The translations under genes and the position numbers were made by a program. This document shows positions 117 through 64,000 of a stretch of 64,000 bases of DNA, piece after piece. A model generated the notes under the pieces. It saw only the letters and a list, made by a program, of their open reading frames with translations, did no database searches and had not been told where the DNA came from. Within the stretch, counting starts at the first letter, position 1. Every line of letters starts with the position of its first letter. The DNA lies in contig JAPPNA010000162.1 of NCBI GenBank assembly GCA_028873925.1, positions 1 to 64,000 on the forward strand, in the 5' to 3' direction. The stretch is from Bacteroidota bacterium (GTDB lineage: Bacteria; Bacteroidota; Rhodothermia; Rhodothermales; Bin80).

Positions 117-2183
117 TTGGATGAGGACTTGGACAGGTTCCCGTACATCAACGGCAGACTGTTTCAAGGGTCACTGAGCATTCCGTCCTTTGACTCGGCC
201 ATGCGAAGTGCACTCCTGGATGCGTGCCTGTTTGACTGGTCCAATATCTCACCTGCTATCTTCGGCGCACTGTTCCAGTCGGTCATGAATCCGGCAGAGC
301 GTCGTGCGCAGGGCGCACACTATACAACCGAGAAGAACATCCTGAAGGTGATTGAGCCGCTCTTCATGGATGACCTGCGGGCTGAATTTGCTCGACTCAA
401 AAAGCGCAGAGATACGCGCCGAACGGCGGATCTGAGGAGATTTCAGGAGAAACTGGGGCAGATGCGATTCTTCGATCCGGCCTGCGGCTGCGGCAACTTC
501 CTCATCATCGCGTATCGGGAGCTGCGTCTGCTTGAGATCGATGTGTTGAAGCAGATTTATCCGAAAGAAGGCCGACAGATGGAGGCTTACGCGTCCGATC
601 TGTCACGAGTTAATGTGGACCAGTTTTTTGGCATTGAGCTCAGCGAATTCCCGGCCCGCATTGCTGAGACCGCCCTTTGGATGATGGATCACATCATGAA
701 TAACCGACTCAGTCTTGAATTTGGTCAGACCTATGTGCGCATTCCGTTGGACGCGTCACCGCACATAGTTCACGGGGATGCATTGGAAAAGGCATGGGCC
801 GACGTTCTGCCACCGGAGGAATGCTCATTCGTCTTCGGCAATCCACCATTTGTGGGCGCTAAGTTCCAATCGCCGGATCAGCGTGCAAAAGTGCGCCGCA
901 TTGCTGCACTTGACAGGACCGGCGGCACCCTTGATTATGTGGCCGCGTGGTTCGTCAGGGCAGGAGAGTTTATTCGCTCGGGTCCAGGCCGGATTGGATT
1001 TGTCGCGACCAATTCAATCACGCAGGGCGAGCAGGTGGGACAACTCTGGCCGATCCTCCTGAATCGCTGCGGATTGGAAATTGCATTCGCTCATCGCACG
1101 TTTGCCTGGGGATCAGACGCGCGCGGCAAGGCGCATGTGCATGTGGTCATAATTGGTCTTGATCTTCGCGCCCGTTCGCGCCCGAAAAAGCGACTCTTCA
1201 GTTACCCTGACATAAATGGTGAGCCGCATGAGAGCCAACATGCGATGCTCTCGCCTTACCTGCTTGATGCGAGCGGGTTCGCTGATCCGAACCTAACGGT
1301 ACGGTTTGAGAGCAGTCCTATCAATGGCATGAAGAAGCTGATCACGGGAACTCAGCCTCTTGAGAACGGCAACATCACTTTCTCAAGTAAAGCGAAATCC
1401 TCGTTTCTGGCTCGGGAACCAGGGGCTGAACCGTATTTCAGGCCCTTTCCAGGATCACGCGAATTCATTCGGCGGCAAGACCGATGGATCCTGCATACGG
1501 CGGACATCCCGCCACAGAAACTGCGCGAATTGCCCATGGTTCGTGAAAGGCTACGTGCCGTCCGCATGTTCCGGGCGAAGAGTAAGCGGATTGCAACACT
1601 ACGGCTCGCCGACTTTCCCCGATCCTATGGCGTAACCGTCGTGCCGGAAACACCGTTCCTGATCATCCCTCAAGTAAGTTCCGAACGCCGCGAGTATGTG
1701 CCCATCGGATGGCTTGAGCCCCCGACCATCCCCAGCGAGAAGCTCCGAATCCTCCCCGATGCGACTCTTGGCGAGTTCGCACTCCTCACATCCGCCATGC
1801 ACATGGCTTGGATGAGAGTTGTAACCGGACGGTTAGAGAGCCGATACATGTACTCCGTTGGCGTAGTCTATAACACCTTCCCGCCACCGCCTGGATTCCT
1901 GGATGGGGACCAATCCGCCATTTTGGACTCGCCGGCGAAAGCCGTGTTGGATGCTCGCGCTGCCTTTCCAGATGTGGCGCTCGCGGATCTATACGACCCG
2001 GACATTATGCCACCATCCCTTAGGAGCGCTCATCAATATCTGGACCGAGCGGTTGACCGGCTGTACAGGAAGCAAGGATTCTCATCAGAGCGGGAGCGTG
2101 TGGAGCTCCTCTTTACGCTGTACGAACACCAGCAGACACCGCTGCTGGAGCGAGTACCGGGCAGGACTCGCCGAAAACGATGA
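117..2183 (+). CDS. MmeI-like DNA methyltransferase, N-terminally truncated
   Basis: Probable adenine-specific DNA methyltransferase of the MmeI/type IIG family, which methylates and, when complete, also cuts DNA. The 688 residues begin in the family's helical spacer (YINGRLF, then AHYTTEKNI), continue with SAM motif I (FDPACGCGNF, about residues 119-128) and catalytic NPPF (242-245), and end in the target recognition and C-terminal parts. The nuclease domain expected in front is missing. The only start in frame is TTG at 117, yet codons 33-116 also read like the family (LFQVLDTP and following residues) back to a TAG at 30-32. I therefore infer a longer gene cut by a nonsense mutation, or a fragment. 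Product or activity of the remaining part is uncertain; the family assignment is firm from the motifs. Confidence 0.8.
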   Translation: MDEDLDRFPYINGRLFQGSLSIPSFDSAMRSALLDACLFDWSNISPAIFGALFQSVMNPAERRAQGAHYTTEKNILKVIEPLFMDDLRAEFARLKKRRDTRRTADLRRFQEKLGQMRFFDPACGCGNFLIIAYRELRLLEIDVLKQIYPKEGRQMEAYASDLSRVNVDQFFGIELSEFPARIAETALWMMDHIMNNRLSLEFGQTYVRIPLDASPHIVHGDALEKAWADVLPPEECSFVFGNPPFVGAKFQSPDQRAKVRRIAALDRTGGTLDYVAAWFVRAGEFIRSGPGRIGFVATNSITQGEQVGQLWPILLNRCGLEIAFAHRTFAWGSDARGKAHVHVVIIGLDLRARSRPKKRLFSYPDINGEPHESQHAMLSPYLLDASGFADPNLTVRFESSPINGMKKLITGTQPLENGNITFSSKAKSSFLAREPGAEPYFRPFPGSREFIRRQDRWILHTADIPPQKLRELPMVRERLRAVRMFRAKSKRIATLRLADFPRSYGVTVVPETPFLIIPQVSSERREYVPIGWLEPPTIPSEKLRILPDATLGEFALLTSAMHMAWMRVVTGRLESRYMYSVGVVYNTFPPPPGFLDGDQSAILDSPAKAVLDARAAFPDVALADLYDPDIMPPSLRSAHQYLDRAVDRLYRKQGFSSERERVELLFTLYEHQQTPLLERVPGRTRRKR

Positions 2184-55024: not shown

Positions 55025-56173
55025 ATGACCGAGATAGATCTCCGGTCGGATTCTCCACGCTCCAAGGATCACCTCAAAATTATTTTTGATGTGGACGACC
55101 GGGGGAAGGCGCGGTATTTTCATGGCCGCCAAACTGTGATTGAGTCATTTGACAGACTGCGTCGCAGCGCAAGTGAGCGAGGAAATGGGACAATCTTTGT
55201 CGTCCAGGGCGCGCCCGGTGCAGGCAAAACGGCGTTACTGCATGTTCTCAAGGCGCGGGCTCGGAAGGACAGGTGGCGTGTAGGGACGATTAATCCAAGT
55301 GCGCTGGGTGATCCGGTGGAGATGGCCGACAGCCTTGGGGTTAGGCTCAAGAGACACATCCGCAGCCATATTGAAGGAGGATTCCAGGGTGTGAAGGCTG
55401 GACTGACAAGTACCCGACCCGCGAAGGAATCCGTACGTCATGTTCTTAAGTCGGCATCACGATTTAAGCGTGGAGTGCTCCTGGTGCTTGATGAGGCACA
55501 GACCATCGCTTGGGAAGCGGAGCAGCGCACGGTCCTTTACACGCTGAATTCCATCCTCAATGGTGAATGGAATCGACCGGCGATCTTGTTGGCTGGTGGG
55601 CTCAGTACCACCCGCCAGGCTTTTCAAACGTTGGGGATTTCCCGGCTGCGGGGAGACTGCCTCGTCAATCTGGCCCGGCTGAATGCAGACGCTGAAAGGG
55701 CTGTAATCCGAGATTGGCTGGTCAAGGCAGGCCGGGCCAAGGGGGAAGTTGCGGAATGGATTGACGCTATTGCCAGCGAAACCGATGGCTGGCCGCAACA
55801 CATTGTCAGTTTTGCCGAGCCCGCCAGTCAGTTACTGAGGGCTACCAATGGGGTTCTAACAGCGCAAGGGCTTAGCGCCGTGATATCAGAAGGTGTGCGG
55901 CGCAAGAACCAATACTATTATGGCCGCATGGACGGGGTGTCACGCAAGAACCGCACTGCTCTGGCTGGCTTTCTCCGTGGAAGGCCGCCCGATGCGGCCT
56001 TCACCCGGGATGAGGTATGGTCAGTCCTGGAAAGTGCGAATCCGCCAGAAGAGGTCGTGATGATGTTTGAGGCATTCTTAAGGAAAGGCATACTTGCGTG
56101 GACTCGCGACGCTGACTTAGCAGTGCCTATCCCTTCAATGCGAAGGTGGTTGGTCAGCACCTACGGCCCGTAG
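55025..56173 (+). CDS. AAA-type P-loop ATPase, unknown role
   Basis: A 382-residue ATPase. Walker A is GAPGAGKTAL (G62-L71, K68), Walker B LLVLDEAQ (D156, E157), and a possible sensor is at LLAGGLSTTRQAF. After the ATPase core comes a helical lid and a C-terminal winged-helix-like part (RPPDAAFTRDEVWSVLESAN). The arrangement recalls STAND/Orc-like AAA proteins or the TniB/AAA_22 group, but I cannot assign it to a named system. It could be the ATPase part of a mobile or defence system, given the neighbours. The start lies at an ATG followed by TEIDLRS. Confidence 0.75.
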   Translation: MTEIDLRSDSPRSKDHLKIIFDVDDRGKARYFHGRQTVIESFDRLRRSASERGNGTIFVVQGAPGAGKTALLHVLKARARKDRWRVGTINPSALGDPVEMADSLGVRLKRHIRSHIEGGFQGVKAGLTSTRPAKESVRHVLKSASRFKRGVLLVLDEAQTIAWEAEQRTVLYTLNSILNGEWNRPAILLAGGLSTTRQAFQTLGISRLRGDCLVNLARLNADAERAVIRDWLVKAGRAKGEVAEWIDAIASETDGWPQHIVSFAEPASQLLRATNGVLTAQGLSAVISEGVRRKNQYYYGRMDGVSRKNRTALAGFLRGRPPDAAFTRDEVWSVLESANPPEEVVMMFEAFLRKGILAWTRDADLAVPIPSMRRWLVSTYGP

Positions 56174-56449: not shown

Positions 56450-56653
56450 ATGAAATCACCGGATCTAGGCAAGAGGGACTCAGAGGCTGGCAGGAGGGAC
56501 ATCGCACTCCTGAAAAAGCTGGCTGAAGGTGGCCGCAAGATGACACCGGCGGACTACCGGGCGCAACGCAGATCGTATGCGCTCACGGCTGCGACGACAT
56601 CTGAAGAAAGGGGAATGTTGGCGAAACATTATGATAGCATCCATGGCGATTAG
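56450..56653 (+). CDS. Small protein preceding fic, putative antitoxin
   Basis: A 67-residue basic/charged protein with the text RDIALLKKLAEGGRKMTPAD and YRAQRRSYALTAATTSEERG. A GAGGA sequence four bases before the ATG (ttgaggaacc) supports translation. It ends 13 bases ahead of the fic start, in the position taken by class I Fic antitoxins. The inhibitory S/T-xxx-E-G/N motif is not clean (T-T-S-E-E-R is the nearest), so the antitoxin idea is a guess from context. Confidence 0.55.
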   Translation: MKSPDLGKRDSEAGRRDIALLKKLAEGGRKMTPADYRAQRRSYALTAATTSEERGMLAKHYDSIHGD

Positions 56654-56666
56654 TCCATGATCGTTC

Positions 56667-57245
56667 ATGAGCTTGCAGGCGGTGCACGAAAGTCATGCGG
56701 CCTATAGAAAATTAGATGCAGAGAATCGGTTAAGGCAGCTCGATCGATTGACATCTCTCGTCAATGCAGCCATCCAGATCTCGTTTCTGTCGCAAACTGA
56801 AATCAAGGCTCTGAATTTCCACGCCATCGGATGACGGCATGCGCATGCGGGCCAGTATCGGCCTGTTGATGTACGTGTCGGCGAACACATGCCGCCTCAG
56901 CATTTCCGGGTCGCGTCGCTCATGTATGACATGGTTAACCGCGTCAATCGCCGTTGGACCGAATTCAGCCCGATGAGTATGGCTGCATACGTGTTGTGGC
57001 GGACCATTTGGATCCATCCGTTTGTCAACGGCAACGGCAGGACTGCCAGAACCGCGTGTTACTTTGTCATCTGCTTGCACGCAGGATTCTGAGTAAGCGG
57101 CGATCCTGTTCTACCGGTGCGTTTGAAGGGACACCCCGAGTACATTCCCGCTCTCAAAACAGCTGACCGAACCGGGGATCTGCTGCCGTTGGAAATGCTT
57201 ATTGGTCGTCTATTGATCGAGCAGGCAGGCATCCCATCAGAGTAG
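56667..57245 (+). pseudogene. Fic-domain protein gene with two in-frame TGA codons
   Basis: One continuous frame of 192 codons starts at ATG 56667 and ends at TAG 57243. It contains the full Fic core: AGQYRPVDVRVGEHMPP, then MAAYVLWRTIWIHPFVNGNG and RTARTACYFVICLHAGF. Two TGA codons interrupt it, at 56832 and 57090, with no frameshift. At the second, many Fic proteins have Trp (AGFWLPG), which suggests TGG to TGA change. The Fic loop reads HPFVNGNGRTAR, with Asn in place of the metal-binding Asp/Glu. With standard code it gives only fragments (56667-56831, and a 67-codon piece from 56889). It is therefore called a pseudogene. Confidence 0.85.
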
Positions 57246-57991
57246 AATTACCCAAGGCTATCTGCACCGAACCTGTCGGTGCCTGGGCGGGTTCTTGCGC
57301 CACCATCCCGCAATTCTTGCGTTTTTCCGGTCGTGGGAAAGGCAGAACTGGCTACGGGCTCCGGACAGCAAGAATCGCATAGACCCTCGTGCAGAATTCG
57401 GAGTCCGGTTCTATCGGCGAATCACTGACGGATGGTGGGGACGATATTCGCCAGGTGGGTGCCAGAAGGCAGTTTGGAGCAAGTCAGGACAGGATGGCTG
57501 GCCCGGCTGCTACCCGATTGCAGTCTGCAGGAGTGATGGCCACATACGAGAGGGCCTGGATCGGCGGATCGGAATAGTCGTCATGACCGTAGTACCTTGG
57601 TGGCGCGCCTCGCTGGCTGTTCAGTCGGTGTCGATCACCCAGCAGCTCGGGCAACCGGGACTACAACGCCCAAAGTGTGGTACATATTGGAGGCTGCGTT
57701 TCCGTGGCGGTAATCCAATCGGCAGGGTTGTCAAAATTGAGCAGAAATTGTGTGGAACCCTCCGACCAAAACGCGGATGTCGCATAAGCGCAGCATCAAC
57801 GAATTCGCCCTTCTGGACGCGTCATGTACTTGATGATCACCGGCTGTGCACAGGAAGGAACCTTACCCATATGACCCGCATCGGATTCAACGCTGCCTGA
57901 GCGGCCCTTGCGGTCCAGTGGATACCCGGCGTGGATCTGGGCTCAGAACCCGCACAATTCTTACGATTTATTGTAGATTATGCCCGGTTGA
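57246..57991. other. Gap between fic and the helicase operon
   Basis: About 750 bases. Plus frame 57295-57900 is open for 201 codons but its residues (many Arg, Trp, Cys, Gly) look like chance, and a second plus frame at 57389-57577 is as good. Neither matches a family that I know. Probably eroded sequence holding the helicase promoter near the right end; an A/T-rich patch lies at 57958-57982. Confidence 0.4.
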
Positions 57992-58099: not shown

Positions 58100-61000
58100 A
58101 TGGACGTATTCGCCTTCCGTAAGAAACTGGTTGAAGAGTACGGGCGCTTCACGCGATCGTTCTGCGAGATCCGTGCCGAGGACATTAAGAAATTTGTGGA
58201 CGAAAAATATGCGGCGGAGAATTTTTGGCCCTCGCCCATCATTCAGCTCAACCCCAACTTCAAGTCAGGGGGCAGGGTGGACGCGCTGGTGGGAGAGGGC
58301 CTGCTTGAGCCTCCATGTGCGGAGATCTTCGCGGAGGCCGGCGAGCCTTATACACTTTACCAGCATCAGGTTGCGGCCATCAAGGTAGCGCAGAGTGGGG
58401 GCAGTTATGTGCTTACCACCGGCACCGGCTCAGGCAAGTCGTTGGCGTACTTTATCCCAATCGTAAATGATGTGCTTCGCAGGAAACGGGAGCAATCAGG
58501 TGGCCCACAAACCACGGCCATTGTTGTTTATCCGATGAATGCCCTCTGCAACAGCCAATTGGAAGAGCTGGAGCGATTCTTCGGCAAGTGTGATAAGGAC
58601 CACACGCCACCTGTGACCTTTGCGCGGTACACAGGACAGGACCCGGATGACCACAAAGACTGGGTAGCGGCAAACCCTCCAGACATTCTGCTAACCAACT
58701 ATGTCATGCTGGAACTCATCATGACCAGGTTCCTGCCGAATGACAAGCGTATTCGGCACCACGCCCAGGGCCTGCGCTTTCTGGTGTTGGATGAGCTGCA
58801 TATCTATCGAGGACGACAGGGAGCGGATGTGGCCATGCTGGTCCGGCGCGTGCGGGAGCGCTTCAATATGGACCTACAATGCGTGGGGACATCCGCCACG
58901 ATGTCATCCGGTGAAGAGAGGCCTGCGGAACGCAATAGGGTTGTTGCAAACGTAGCATCGCGGCTGTTCGGCTCCACCGTTAAGCCGGAGCATGTGATAA
59001 CCGAAACCCTTACTTCGGTCACGGAAAGGTCCAGCGTTCCGACGGGAGCAGCACTGAAGGCATTGATTGAGAGGAGCATACCCGCGGTAGTGTCCTACAA
59101 CAGGTTGAAGCGAGACCCGTTTACGGCTTGGGTGGAGTGGACGCTAGGGTTAGAAATCGTTGATGGTAAACTGATTCGCGTATCACGCCCGCTCTCGGTT
59201 AACGCGGCTGCGGTAAAGCTCTCGGAATCTACTGGACTTAGAGTTGATACCTGCATGCAGTACCTGCGCGAATATCTGCTGAGAGCATCCCGTTCGCAGA
59301 ATGAGCGTGGTCGCAACCTGTTTGCTTTTCGGCTGCACCAGTTCATCAGCGGAGCATGGAGCGTGTTCACTTCGCTGGAGCCACCAGGGGATCGCCACCT
59401 TACCCTTTCTGGACAGCGATTTGTGCCTGATGATGGCGAGCGGAAGCGCAGATTGTTTCCACTATGCTTCTGCAGGGAGTGCGGACAGGAGTATATCCCG
59501 GTGTGGGCCACCAAAGAAGGCCAGCGGATCGAGTCCCTTGATCCTCGGGACCTTACTGAGCGTTCCAACGATGATGAGACCATTCAGTCAGGCTTTCTGC
59601 TATTGGACCCCGAACGAGTGTTCCGGGCGGATGTAGTCGAGGGAAACTACCCGGAGGACTGGGTTGAGATATTCCATGGCGCTTGGCGACTCAAGAATTA
59701 CTACCGCAAATACCGCCCCATCGCCATTCATGTAGATACCCTTGGTGGGGCAGATGAATCAGGGACTCCCGGCTGGTATATCCCCGGTCCGTTCCGATTC
59801 TGCCTTAACGGTGAGTGTGGTGCCGTGTATTCCGGGCATGTGCGAAGTGATCTTTCTAAGCTTTCAAGCCTTTCGGGCGAAGGCCGCAGCTCAGCCACGA
59901 CGATACTAACGCTATCTGTTCTTAAGCGGCTGATCGAGGGGGATCTGGATGATGAGGCGAAGAAGCTCTTGGCCTTTACCGATAACCGTCAGGATGCCAG
60001 CCTGCAGGCCGGGCATTTCAACGACTTCATCCAGGTGCTACTGCTGCGGAGCGCCCTCATAGCGGCCGTAAAACAATCCCCAAGCCAATCACTCTCGGAC
60101 GAAACCATTGCTCTGGGTGTCCTTAATCAGCTCCGACTGACCAACGATCAGTTCGCTGCTAATACTCAGCTTCGGGGCCCGGCGCGAGAACGAACGCGCC
60201 AGACTCTGTTGAATGTGCTTGGGTACCGGATTTACAGAGATCTGGAACGCGGGTGGCGCATCAACAACCCCAATCTTGAGCAGCTGGGCCTACTTGGCAT
60301 CCGATACCTGGGGCTGAAAGCCTGTTGCAGCGATGAAGAGGTGTGGGGCGAAGGGCCAGAGCTCCTGACGAGTGCAACTGCTGCAAACCGTGAGAATATT
60401 GCGCATGACCTATTGGAGCGGATGCGACGGGCCCTGTGCATCAAGACAATCTACCTTGACCGTAATCGCATTGAGAGACTGCGCAACCAGAGTTATAACG
60501 ACTTAAAGGAGCCTTGGGGGCTTTCAGAGGGCGAGAATGTTTGGGGGGCCAGAACTATGGTGCCGGAATCAAGACGGGGCAGGGGGCCGAGCGACCATAT
60601 GTATCTGTCCAGTCGGTCCGAGTTCGGACGCAAGCTTAATGCGGATGATCGCTGGGGGGAAGATAATCCGTACTTCACCGGCAACCTCAGCAAGGACGAG
60701 TACAGCCAGGTGATCAACGCCTTGCTAACCGCGTTGGGACGGTACGGCCTGATTGAAGTGGTACCGCTGGCCAACAGACAGTCAGGGTATCAGATCAACA
60801 GCAGCGTGATGGAGTGGCACCTACCATCGAACGAGGATGCCCAACGGTCCAACCTGTTCTTCCGCAGACTTTATCGGGACACAGCGAATCTCTTGTCTGA
60901 CAACAACAATTTCCTCCATCGGATTGCCGCCAGAGAGCATACGGCTCAGGTTGAGTCCGAGGATAGAGAAGAACGTGAGAAACGATTCCGGCAGGGCCTC

Positions 61001-63307
61001 AAGAAGGACGGACTGCCGGTGCTTTATTGCTCACCAACCATGGAATTGGGTGTGGATATCGCCACGCTCAATACGGTGTATATGCGGAATGTGCCACCGA
61101 CCCCGGCCAATTATGTCCAGCGCGGTGGCCGGGCCGGCCGAAGTGGTCAGCCTGCCCTGGTGGTTACCTACTGTGCCGCCAGATCGCCGCACGATCAATA
61201 TTTCTTTCAGGATCCTCGGCGCATGGTGTCGGGGGAGGTGAATCCGCCATCCATTGATCTGGCCAATGAGGAGCTCATCCGCAGCCATTTGCATGCGGTG
61301 TGGCTCGCGGAGACGGGCGTTAGGCTGGACTCAACTGTAAAGGATTTACTTGACCTGGAGGATAACCAACAACCCGTGTATCAGGAACTCCATGCACAGT
61401 TGGATCGAAGCCTTGTGCGCGAACAGGCGATGCTGCGGTCAGGCAGGATTCTTGAGACCATCCACAGCGATCTTACGACGACAGCCGCCCCGTGGTATTC
61501 AAATGACTGGGTCAATTCCGCAGTACAGACTGCCTGGAGGCGCTTTGACACGTCGTTTGAGCGCTGGCGGTCACTTTATCGGGCCACGACGACACAAATG
61601 GATGTAGCCAACAGGGTAATTGGCAATCCTGCGGCAAATGCAACCGATCGTGATCGAGCCAAGAACCAGCACGACGAAGCTTTCCGGCAGCAGAAGCTCC
61701 TGCTTTCTGCAACTGATCGAAGGCAGTCAGATTTTGCAACATATCGCTATTTGGCGGCGCAGGGATTCCTCCCAGGGTATAACTTTCCACGACTGCCACT
61801 TATGGCTTTCATCCCCGGCAGCAGACTCACCGGATCAAGACAGTCCGTGCTGAACAGACCGAGATTTATTGGGTTGGCGGAGTTTGGCCCCCAGTCATTC
61901 ATCTACCATGAGGGGAATACGTTCCGCGTAGCGAAGGCCATGTTATCCATTGATGAGGTGGCAGACGCGTCTTCCAGAAGGATGCTCCCTGTTCGAGAGG
62001 TTGCCATTTGCTCAAGGTGCGGGTACGGACATTTTGGAGCGGAGAAAGACAGCGAGTGCTGCGTGCGGTGCGAAGGTCGCCTGACGGATGCTCGAATAAT
62101 TTCAAATCTATTCAGAATTGAGCAGGTGTCCACCCGGCGGGTGAATCGAATCACCTCTGACGCTGAAGAGCGACAGCGTCAGGGCTACGAAATGATCACG
62201 ACCTACAAATTTGCGACCAAGGATGGCACGCCTCTAGTGGACTCCTTCCAGTATGTGGTGGATGGCGAGGTTTTGATTGAGTTGGAATTCGGGCCGACAG
62301 CCACTCTCTGGAGAGTAAATCTCGGCTGGCGCCGACGGCGGGCAAAAACCATCTATGGTTTCAATGTGGATCCCAACACGGGCATATGGGCGAAAAATGA
62401 GCAGGCACCGACTGATGCGGAAGATGATCGGATAGAGAATACCGCCTACACTGAGCGCATTACCCCGTATGTCCAAGACACCAAGAATGTGCTGATCATC
62501 AAACCCTCGCCCGAACTGGACGACACGGCCGTTACAACCCTGCAGTACGCGTTTAAGCGCGGCATAGAGAAGGTTTATCAACTGGAGAATTCCGAGTTAG
62601 CCGCGGAGCCGCTGCCGGATGCCTCTAATCGCAGGGCTATCCTGCTGTATGAGGCCTCAGAGGGAGGGGCTGGTGTTCTGAATCGTATTGCCCGTGATGC
62701 CAGCGCGCTCGGGCGCGTGGCCCGGGCGGCACTTGAAATTTGCCACTACGAGGCTCAAGCAGACCGGTGGAGCAGCCACAAGGCACTTACAGATCAGTTG
62801 AAGAACTGCGAGGCAGGATGTTACAAATGCCTCCTGAGCTATTACAACCAATTGGATCACGACAGGATTGACCGGAAACACGAGGCGGTCATAGCCATCC
62901 TGTGCCAGCTAACAGCCGCCAAGCAGGAACGCACCCGTCACATAGAGATCCGTTCGCCATCACTTGACGCGCTGATTGAGCGCTGCGATTCCGATTTAGA
63001 AAGGGACTGGCTCCGATTCCTCTCAGACAACGATTATGTGCTGCCTGATCGTGCCCAGCCGCTGTTGAAAGGATACAAGACGCGCCCAGACTTCCAATAT
63101 TTTGACCATCAAGTCATTGTGTACGTAGATGGCATTCATCATTTTGGCGAGCAAAAAAGGAAGAAAGACGCAGAGATCAGGGCCTCGCTTGCGGCTGCGG
63201 GGTATACCGTCATATCGTTTGCGCACCGGAAAAAAGATTGGCCCAAGACCATAGATCGGTTTGCTTGGGTATTCAGGCCCTCAAGTGTATGTGCCTTACA
63301 TGGGTAA
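58100..63307 (+). CDS. Large DEAD/DEAH helicase + DUF1998 protein with C-terminal nuclease-like domain
   Basis: A 1735-residue defence-type helicase. It has a Q-like motif LYQHQVAAI, Walker A TGTGSGKS (107-114), motif II DELH (231-234), motif III GTSATM, and in the second RecA part GVDIATLNTVYMRNV and QRGGRAGRSGQ (1007-1017). Cysteine pairs occur near 460 (CFCRECGQ) and 1304-1324 (CSRCGYG). The DUF1998 part follows, with YEASEGGAGVLNRIA and C1570, C1574, C1577. The last 100 residues look like a DUF559/Vsr-type PD-(D/E)XK nuclease: RPDFQYFDH (D1664) and VIVYVDGIHHFGEQKRK (D1677). The layout equals DrmA+DrmB or DruE of DISARM and Druantia, plus the nuclease. It overlaps the SNF2 gene by eight bases. 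Confidence 0.85.
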   Translation: MDVFAFRKKLVEEYGRFTRSFCEIRAEDIKKFVDEKYAAENFWPSPIIQLNPNFKSGGRVDALVGEGLLEPPCAEIFAEAGEPYTLYQHQVAAIKVAQSGGSYVLTTGTGSGKSLAYFIPIVNDVLRRKREQSGGPQTTAIVVYPMNALCNSQLEELERFFGKCDKDHTPPVTFARYTGQDPDDHKDWVAANPPDILLTNYVMLELIMTRFLPNDKRIRHHAQGLRFLVLDELHIYRGRQGADVAMLVRRVRERFNMDLQCVGTSATMSSGEERPAERNRVVANVASRLFGSTVKPEHVITETLTSVTERSSVPTGAALKALIERSIPAVVSYNRLKRDPFTAWVEWTLGLEIVDGKLIRVSRPLSVNAAAVKLSESTGLRVDTCMQYLREYLLRASRSQNERGRNLFAFRLHQFISGAWSVFTSLEPPGDRHLTLSGQRFVPDDGERKRRLFPLCFCRECGQEYIPVWATKEGQRIESLDPRDLTERSNDDETIQSGFLLLDPERVFRADVVEGNYPEDWVEIFHGAWRLKNYYRKYRPIAIHVDTLGGADESGTPGWYIPGPFRFCLNGECGAVYSGHVRSDLSKLSSLSGEGRSSATTILTLSVLKRLIEGDLDDEAKKLLAFTDNRQDASLQAGHFNDFIQVLLLRSALIAAVKQSPSQSLSDETIALGVLNQLRLTNDQFAANTQLRGPARERTRQTLLNVLGYRIYRDLERGWRINNPNLEQLGLLGIRYLGLKACCSDEEVWGEGPELLTSATAANRENIAHDLLERMRRALCIKTIYLDRNRIERLRNQSYNDLKEPWGLSEGENVWGARTMVPESRRGRGPSDHMYLSSRSEFGRKLNADDRWGEDNPYFTGNLSKDEYSQVINALLTALGRYGLIEVVPLANRQSGYQINSSVMEWHLPSNEDAQRSNLFFRRLYRDTANLLSDNNNFLHRIAAREHTAQVESEDREEREKRFRQGLKKDGLPVLYCSPTMELGVDIATLNTVYMRNVPPTPANYVQRGGRAGRSGQPALVVTYCAARSPHDQYFFQDPRRMVSGEVNPPSIDLANEELIRSHLHAVWLAETGVRLDSTVKDLLDLEDNQQPVYQELHAQLDRSLVREQAMLRSGRILETIHSDLTTTAAPWYSNDWVNSAVQTAWRRFDTSFERWRSLYRATTTQMDVANRVIGNPAANATDRDRAKNQHDEAFRQQKLLLSATDRRQSDFATYRYLAAQGFLPGYNFPRLPLMAFIPGSRLTGSRQSVLNRPRFIGLAEFGPQSFIYHEGNTFRVAKAMLSIDEVADASSRRMLPVREVAICSRCGYGHFGAEKDSECCVRCEGRLTDARIISNLFRIEQVSTRRVNRITSDAEERQRQGYEMITTYKFATKDGTPLVDSFQYVVDGEVLIELEFGPTATLWRVNLGWRRRRAKTIYGFNVDPNTGIWAKNEQAPTDAEDDRIENTAYTERITPYVQDTKNVLIIKPSPELDDTAVTTLQYAFKRGIEKVYQLENSELAAEPLPDASNRRAILLYEASEGGAGVLNRIARDASALGRVARAALEICHYEAQADRWSSHKALTDQLKNCEAGCYKCLLSYYNQLDHDRIDRKHEAVIAILCQLTAAKQERTRHIEIRSPSLDALIERCDSDLERDWLRFLSDNDYVLPDRAQPLLKGYKTRPDFQYFDHQVIVYVDGIHHFGEQKRKKDAEIRASLAAAGYTVISFAHRKKDWPKTIDRFAWVFRPSSVCALHG

Positions 63308-64000
63308 GGCACTCGCGTATAGACCGGGAGATCTGGTGCGTGCTCGAGGGCGGGAATGGGTCGTGCTACCGGAGTTGCGGCCGAATTTGCTCAAACTGCG
63401 CCCGATGGGTGGGACCGACAGAGATTCCACGCTCATATACCTGCCGCTTGAACCCGAGCCTCCCAAGCCCGCCACATTCAGCTTGCCGGACCCCAATCAG
63501 TCTGGTACGCTGGAGGCCACTTGGCTCCTGATGACCGCCTGCCGCCTGAAGCTCCGCGCCGGGGCTGGGCCTTTCAGGAGCTTTGGGCATCTGAATTTTG
63601 AACCGCGTGCTTATCAGCTGGTCCCGTTAATGATGGCGCTCAGGATGGATACCATCCGGCTCTTGATTGCTGACGATGTCGGAATTGGCAAGACGATAGA
63701 GGCGGGCCTGATTGCCCGCGAGCTGCTGGATCGCGGTGAAATTACTAAGTCAGCGGTAATCTGCCCGCCCCATTTGTGTGACCAGTGGCAGCAGGAATTG
63801 GAGACAAAGTTCAGCATTCAGGCAGACATTGTCAGCGCCGGAACGGCGCGTCGGCTGGAGCGGAATGTGCCCGCTGGGGAGTCCATTTTTGAAGTTTACG
63901 ATCATACGGTCGTATCGCTGGATTACATCAAATCGAATCGTCGCCGGGACGAATTTGCGCGAGTCTGTCCTGACTTTGTGATCGTCGATGAGGCACATAC
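63300..64000 (+). CDS. SNF2-like helicase (DrmD-like), partial
   Basis: The frame starts with ATGGGTAA, overlapping the stop of the large helicase, and runs off the window after 233 codons. The N-terminal part reads ALAYRPGDLVRARGREWVVL, then a linker, then the helicase core: FEPRAYQLVPLMMAL (Q-like motif), ADDVGIGKTIEAGLIARELL (Walker A, K131), SAVICPPHLCDQWQQEL (motif Ia) and FVIVDEAHT (motif II), where the window ends. This is the start of SNF2/RapA-type proteins such as DrmD of class 1 DISARM. The full protein would be about 1000 residues. Tight coupling suggests both helicases act in one complex or pathway. Confidence 0.85.
   Translation, partial: MGKALAYRPGDLVRARGREWVVLPELRPNLLKLRPMGGTDRDSTLIYLPLEPEPPKPATFSLPDPNQSGTLEATWLLMTACRLKLRAGAGPFRSFGHLNFEPRAYQLVPLMMALRMDTIRLLIADDVGIGKTIEAGLIARELLDRGEITKSAVICPPHLCDQWQQELETKFSIQADIVSAGTARRLERNVPAGESIFEVYDHTVVSLDYIKSNRRRDEFARVCPDFVIVDEAH

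Follow-up and report, generated by a model that had tools for sequence, protein, structure and literature searches.

The two helicase genes that come last in the 64,000-nucleotide stretch of Bacteroidota DNA analysed here (hereafter the window) very probably belong to an ARMADA Type I operon, made up of a YprA helicase-nuclease, an SNF2/RapA-like helicase and an Eco57I/PglX-like methyltransferase, and judged from its sequence this operon is almost certainly a defence operon. ARMADA Type I has been described as a YprA helicase-nuclease followed by a BrxHII/RapA-like helicase and then by a PglX-like methyltransferase, in that usual order, and is marked by a Vsr-type C-terminal nuclease, a BrxA-like insert and a clade of its own (Bell et al. 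2025, PMC12458937). A sequence-only reading of the window had recognized a defence operon with two helicases and with ties to DISARM class 1 and Druantia, which the 1735-aa YprA-family protein and the SNF2 helicase described below bear out, and had found no named system to fit the layout. That layout had already been named in the September 2025 preprint (PMC12458937), and the locus is a further example of it rather than a new kind of system. Our identification rests on gene content, gene order, the integrity of domains and motifs, clade placement and the junction of an insertion element. The features of the locus are as follows.

58100..63307, + strand: YprA-family helicase-nuclease, 1735 aa (ATG start, Pfam, tree, motifs)
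58361..58909, + strand: RecA1 / DEAD domain, residues 88-270 (Pfam PF00270, 89.2 bits)
60887..61147, + strand: RecA2 / Helicase_C, residues 930-1016 (Pfam PF00271, 45.5 bits)
62540..62833, + strand: MZB / DUF1998 zinc-binding domain, residues 1481-1578 (Pfam PF09369, 41.3 bits)
62969..63274, + strand: predicted Vsr/DUF559-like nuclease domain, residues ~1624-1725 (DUF559, invariant residues, PDB profile match)
63300..64000, continuing to 66161, + strand: SNF2/RapA-like (BrxHII/DrmD-like) helicase, 953 aa (SNF2-rel_dom, Helicase_C, motifs, tree)

The first gene encodes a fused YprA helicase-nuclease

The first gene is a single open frame without internal stops, and relatives spanning the full length of its product occur in many genomes at 34-55% identity, including members of the same family and order, so 58100-63307 is a real conserved gene. 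The DEAD, Helicase_C, MZB and DUF559 matches each exceed the Pfam curated cut-off, and the protein carries the Walker A motif TGTGSGKS at residues 107-114, DELH at 231, QRGGRAGR at 1007 and C..C pairs at 458, 1304, 1321 and 1574 (CYKC at 1574). Its best PADLOC profile is DruE, at 317 bits against 48 for DrmA, none of the NCBIfam equivalog models scores above cut-off, and the solved structures matched by phmmer are two large helicases (9tu7, 9wae) and B. subtilis YprA/MrfA (6znp). By its sequence matches the protein is a YprA-family helicase from the Druantia side of the family; it is the YprA homologue of ARMADA Type I, whose Type II equivalent is ArmC. The sequence-only reading had seen DrmA and DrmB joined in this polypeptide: helicase and DUF1998 do share one frame, while their identity with DrmA and DrmB gives way, in view of the two profile scores, to an analogy. 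Directly after RecA1, where a BrxA-like helical insert is a feature of ARMADA Type I (PMC12458937), residues 282-437 are conserved and mostly helical, and the low-confidence structure model of this region (mean pLDDT 64) has no fold match.

The fused C-terminal PD-(D/E)XK-type nuclease that had been proposed from the letters alone passed the profile search, with DUF559 matching residues 1664-1709 at 23.0 bits (curated Pfam cut-off 20.6) and matching 11 of 16 homologues individually. Across these 16 homologues E1634, D1664, F1665, D1677, G1678, H1681 and D1690 are invariant, forming the pattern S-x-L/T-E, (P)DF, x-D-G-x-x-H, D. Profile matches in the PDB are both weak, the best being to the endonuclease-like protein 3hrl (E 0.016) and the other to the mobile intron protein 3r3p (E 0.24). 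Both are Vsr-like proteins, and 3r3p belongs to a family that takes its name from the EDxHD motif, the pattern found in this domain. The AlphaFold model of the nuclease, built for three sequences, is of low confidence (pLDDT 66) and gave no structural match, and the Foldseek matches of the nuclease and RecA1-insert models, at E > 0.2, were set aside as noise. Since the nuclease motif is lost in the Acidithiobacillus and Mesorhizobium rows, both outside the set of 16, not every member of the Type I-like clade has the nuclease. For the window protein itself we predict that the Vsr-type nuclease ending the YprA polypeptide is active, as is characteristic of ARMADA Type I.

Upstream of the operon, the window also holds a complete 382-aa AAA ATPase (AAA_22/AAA_16; 55025-56173), 1.9 kb away, which may be a transposon or defence ATPase, and a decayed Fic-like stretch with stops (56640-57250; IHPFVNGNGRTARTA). 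A Fic gene is likewise the neighbour of an ARMADA II locus on a plasmid (L093).

An SNF2 helicase overlaps the first gene

The overlap of the SNF2 gene with the first gene, noticed at the outset, amounts to 8 bp when the ATG at 63300 is taken as the start (953 aa); an alternative TTG start at 63261 would give 966 aa. The first 233 codons lie inside the window, and the stop is at position 66161 of the contig (C182, 66777 bases). The product carries DEAH at 230 and QREGRVDR at 578. Against NCBIfam it scores 336 bits with DrmD (cut-off 610), 180 with DpdE (cut-off 500) and 76 with DpdJ (cut-off 800), and the PADLOC profile PDLC02853, labelled 'DpdE', matches its whole length (L002:13300-16158) at 665 bits. 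This same profile reaches 1074 bits on the SNF2 protein of the Nocardioides ARMADA I operon (L097:14223-17081), which indicates that it describes the ARMADA I SNF2 family and that its 'DpdE' label is probably wrong; its match to E. coli ArmA is weak (136 bits). With the profiles of PADLOC-DB 2.0.0 the two genes would come out as 'DruE' and 'DpdE', and existing surveys may therefore contain Type I operons under wrong labels.

Relatives share the gene order and form one clade

The order YprA, SNF2, methyltransferase recurs in 12 tabulated relatives, mostly with overlaps or gaps of < 40 bp. SNF2 is the next gene in nearly all relatives with sufficient flanking sequence, and an Eco57I-type methyltransferase follows SNF2 in most. 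Of 114 genomes in the order, 11 give a strong SNF2 match (E<=1e-100), and every one of the 11 has the YprA helicase on the same contig. The layout is also found on named plasmids, namely Deinococcus radiodurans MP1 (where the methyltransferase is annotated as two pieces), Roseomonas p5-AD3, Nocardioides pNOCA01, Paraburkholderia pI and Mesorhizobium pMspAR02c. Natrinema, an archaeon, and Thermus have the SNF2 gene at the front, an order reported for many archaea (PMC12458937). Viral contigs searched by helicase and by SNF2 yielded no relative. The scan of named genomes gave only three MAG relatives, and sampling for the trees drew largely on other genomes and plasmid records.

In the helicase tree, the window protein falls within a 20-row Type I-like clade with 100% support, outside which lie both DruE and ARMADA II, the latter represented by E. 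coli loci including the preprint's representative WP_000937974.1. The Druantia III DruE proteins from E. coli and Azotobacter, each encoded next to STY4851/DruH, form a separate 100% clade, and the position of DrmA, on a branch of length 10, is not trusted. The SNF2 and methyltransferase trees recover the same nearest relatives as the helicase tree, the methyltransferase grouping at 99%. As the trees were built without the preprint's Type I reference (WP_108720193.1), placement in Type I stands on operon content together with exclusion from Type II.

Two further groups of genes came to light in these searches. ARMADA Type II genes are scattered over short contigs of the same genome (C14:62-2872, C53:1376-3577 and C163:3939-12037; L044). 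They encode a protein resembling ArmA (42% to that of E. coli), a fragment resembling ArmB, an ArmC-like protein of 1982 aa and a UvrD helicase resembling ArmD, which is 41% to the E. coli protein and aligns from the N-terminal part on. The full three-gene Type I set thus occurs in a genome that also carries Type II genes. In related genomes, a clade of ~1740-aa YprA helicases (L040-L043) has no SNF2 or methyltransferase gene found nearby and no DUF559 match where scanned; a separate Mrr-type nuclease gene follows in two of the four, a nucleotidyltransferase-HEPN pair precedes the helicase in one, and the clade may be another YprA system.

The methyltransferase lies across an insertion element

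A methyltransferase had been expected beyond the window, and no start for one is present in the 616 nt between the SNF2 stop and the end of contig C182. Searching the genome with a relative's methyltransferase gave a full-length match at 51% identity on contig C141, where an Eco57I/PglX-like protein of 1145 aa starts 275 bp from the contig end, with DPACGSG and NPPW intact. By sequence, this is a predicted N6-adenine DNA methyltransferase of the Eco57I/PglX-like kind and the third gene of the operon. The end repeats of C182 and C141 also occur at other contig ends in the genome. Their terminal inverted repeats resemble each other (GTAAGCGTACGGTAAAGTA and GTATCCGTATGGTAAACTA, 15/19 alike), and the 8 bases flanking them are identical in both contigs (ATTCGGAC). 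Among 30 pairings of six left with five right ends, an exact 8-bp flank was found in three (C182/C141, C143/C52 and C153/C158), the chance probability of a single 8-bp match being ~1.5e-5. These shared flanks imply that an element making 8-bp target duplications split the locus, and by their sequence signature the C182 end after SNF2 and the C141 end by the methyltransferase are the two ends of a single insertion element. The join rests on target duplication and phylogeny, as no sequence crosses the element.

With the element removed, a spacer of 647 nt would separate SNF2 from the methyltransferase, against < 40 bp in most relatives. The part of this spacer on C182 (66162-66724) holds an 81-codon ORF (66483-66728) whose stop is supplied by the element; without the element its frame would extend to ~91 codons. 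The MmeI-type methyltransferase with a target recognition domain at the other end of the window (117-2183; MmeI_Mtase, 277 bits) lies 56 kb away and does not belong to the operon; the sequence-only reading had already found it too distant to be assumed a member.

The insertion raises the possibility that the operon is ARMADA Type I by descent and does not work in this strain, the element having uncoupled the methyltransferase from operon transcription. This is compatible with the identification, and we think it somewhat unlikely. The position of the element between genes 2 and 3, the contig-end repeats and the 8-bp duplication would all fit such a loss, but the three reading frames are open and intact despite the element and their catalytic motifs are retained. 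In addition, the spacer predates the element, and its 647 nt would already have left room for a separate methyltransferase promoter.

Assignment to other systems

Of the assignments to a different system, a variant of DISARM class 1, with DrmA, DrmB and a nuclease fused together and with DrmD and DrmMI as partners, accounts for the match of SNF2 to NCBIfam DrmD and for the scores of the relatives' methyltransferases with PADLOC DrmMI (up to 841 bits). We nevertheless regard it as very unlikely: the DrmD score stays well below its cut-off, NCBIfam DrmA gives the helicase 20 bits against a cut-off of 950, the DruE profiles fit it far better than DrmA, and helicase and DUF1998 occupy one 1735-aa frame whereas DrmA and DrmB are encoded separately. 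On the conjugative Nocardioides plasmid pNOCA01 (L097 / L101), an annotated DISARM (drmA, drmB, drmD) and an ARMADA I operon occur separately within a few kb of each other, so that one plasmid holds the two as distinct systems.

The best PADLOC match of the helicase, DruE, could instead suggest a Druantia variant with unusual partners, a reading whose chances we put slightly lower still. DruE of Druantia III occupies its separate clade, and the partners in the relatives' operons are SNF2 and a methyltransferase, with DruH, DruM and other Dru genes not recognized there. Inspection of the downstream sequence, proposed beforehand as a check, turned up neither an ordinary DISARM nor an ordinary Druantia operon. 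Least probable of all is a component of a Dpd (7-deazapurine) system, as the whole-length PDLC02853 match of SNF2 would have it, given that the label of this profile looks wrong, that the curated DpdE and DpdJ models fall far short of their cut-offs and that no dpd genes lie beside the named relatives.

Proposed mechanism

ARMADA Type I is widespread by sequence, and among the papers found none tests a Type I system against phages. Since the phage defence experiments concern ARMADA Type II only (PMC12458937), we infer from sequence the mechanism of the present operon, including the activity of each enzyme, the formation of a complex and the role of methylation. On balance, we lean towards a scheme in which the YprA helicase would engage phage DNA, incoming or replicating, by loading on single strands that are exposed or 3'-tailed, and then translocate, the EDxHD-type nuclease at its C-terminus would nick or cut the DNA, and the SNF2 motor would remodel or deliver the target. 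The methyltransferase would mark host DNA, license the complex, or both, with methylation likely tied to self-recognition, and the defence would be direct and non-abortive, with survival of the infected cell as has been measured in Type II. In E. coli, Type II requires all four genes, the Walker A motifs and the NPPW motif, and the cells remain viable (PMC12458937).

Among YprA helicases studied biochemically, DruE from Druantia III comes nearest. It is a dimer that loads onto 3'-tailed DNA and cleaves long DNA with no strong preference for sequence, its DUF1998-type module adjoining the DNA channel (PMC13192584). By homology, we would expect the same loading but a cut of the Vsr type, not the PLD type; the roles given to the SNF2 helicase and the methyltransferase are guesses from DISARM and BREX. 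The insertion between the motors and the methyltransferase is in effect a natural experiment on the need for co-expressed methylation. With its three genes intact behind a 647-nt spacer and then an element, Type I might tolerate separation of the methyltransferase, and if that gene is silenced while the cell survives, methylation would be unneeded for self-protection and would act in defence itself. This last role is hinted at by the NPPW requirement of ArmB in Type II, and we give the proposal as a whole only a small chance of being right.

Comparison with known systems

ARMADA Type II (E. coli armABCD, WP_000937974.1) has the same three protein families in a different order, with SNF2, methyltransferase and YprA followed by a GajB-like helicase with a RelE-like N-terminus, and its YprA protein is larger (2113 aa) and belongs to a separate clade. 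No such GajB-like gene directly follows the window YprA gene, where SNF2 is next. DISARM class 1 shares the families of the YprA helicase, the SNF2 protein DrmD and the methyltransferase DrmMI, but encodes DrmA, DrmB and the PLD nuclease DrmC as separate genes, in contrast to the single polypeptide with a Vsr-type nuclease seen here. Druantia Type III (DruE-DruH) has in DruE the nearest helicase profile, a YprA helicase with DUF1998 and a fused nuclease, but that nuclease is of the PLD type, its partner is DruH, SNF2 and methyltransferase are absent, and it forms its own clade. Apart from the insertion element and the 647-nt spacer between genes 2 and 3, the only differences that we saw, the locus agrees with ARMADA Type I in these respects: it has no GajB-RelE gene, its genes run from YprA to the BrxHII/RapA-like helicase to the PglX-like methyltransferase, and its YprA-DUF1998 protein is fused to a predicted Vsr-type nuclease.
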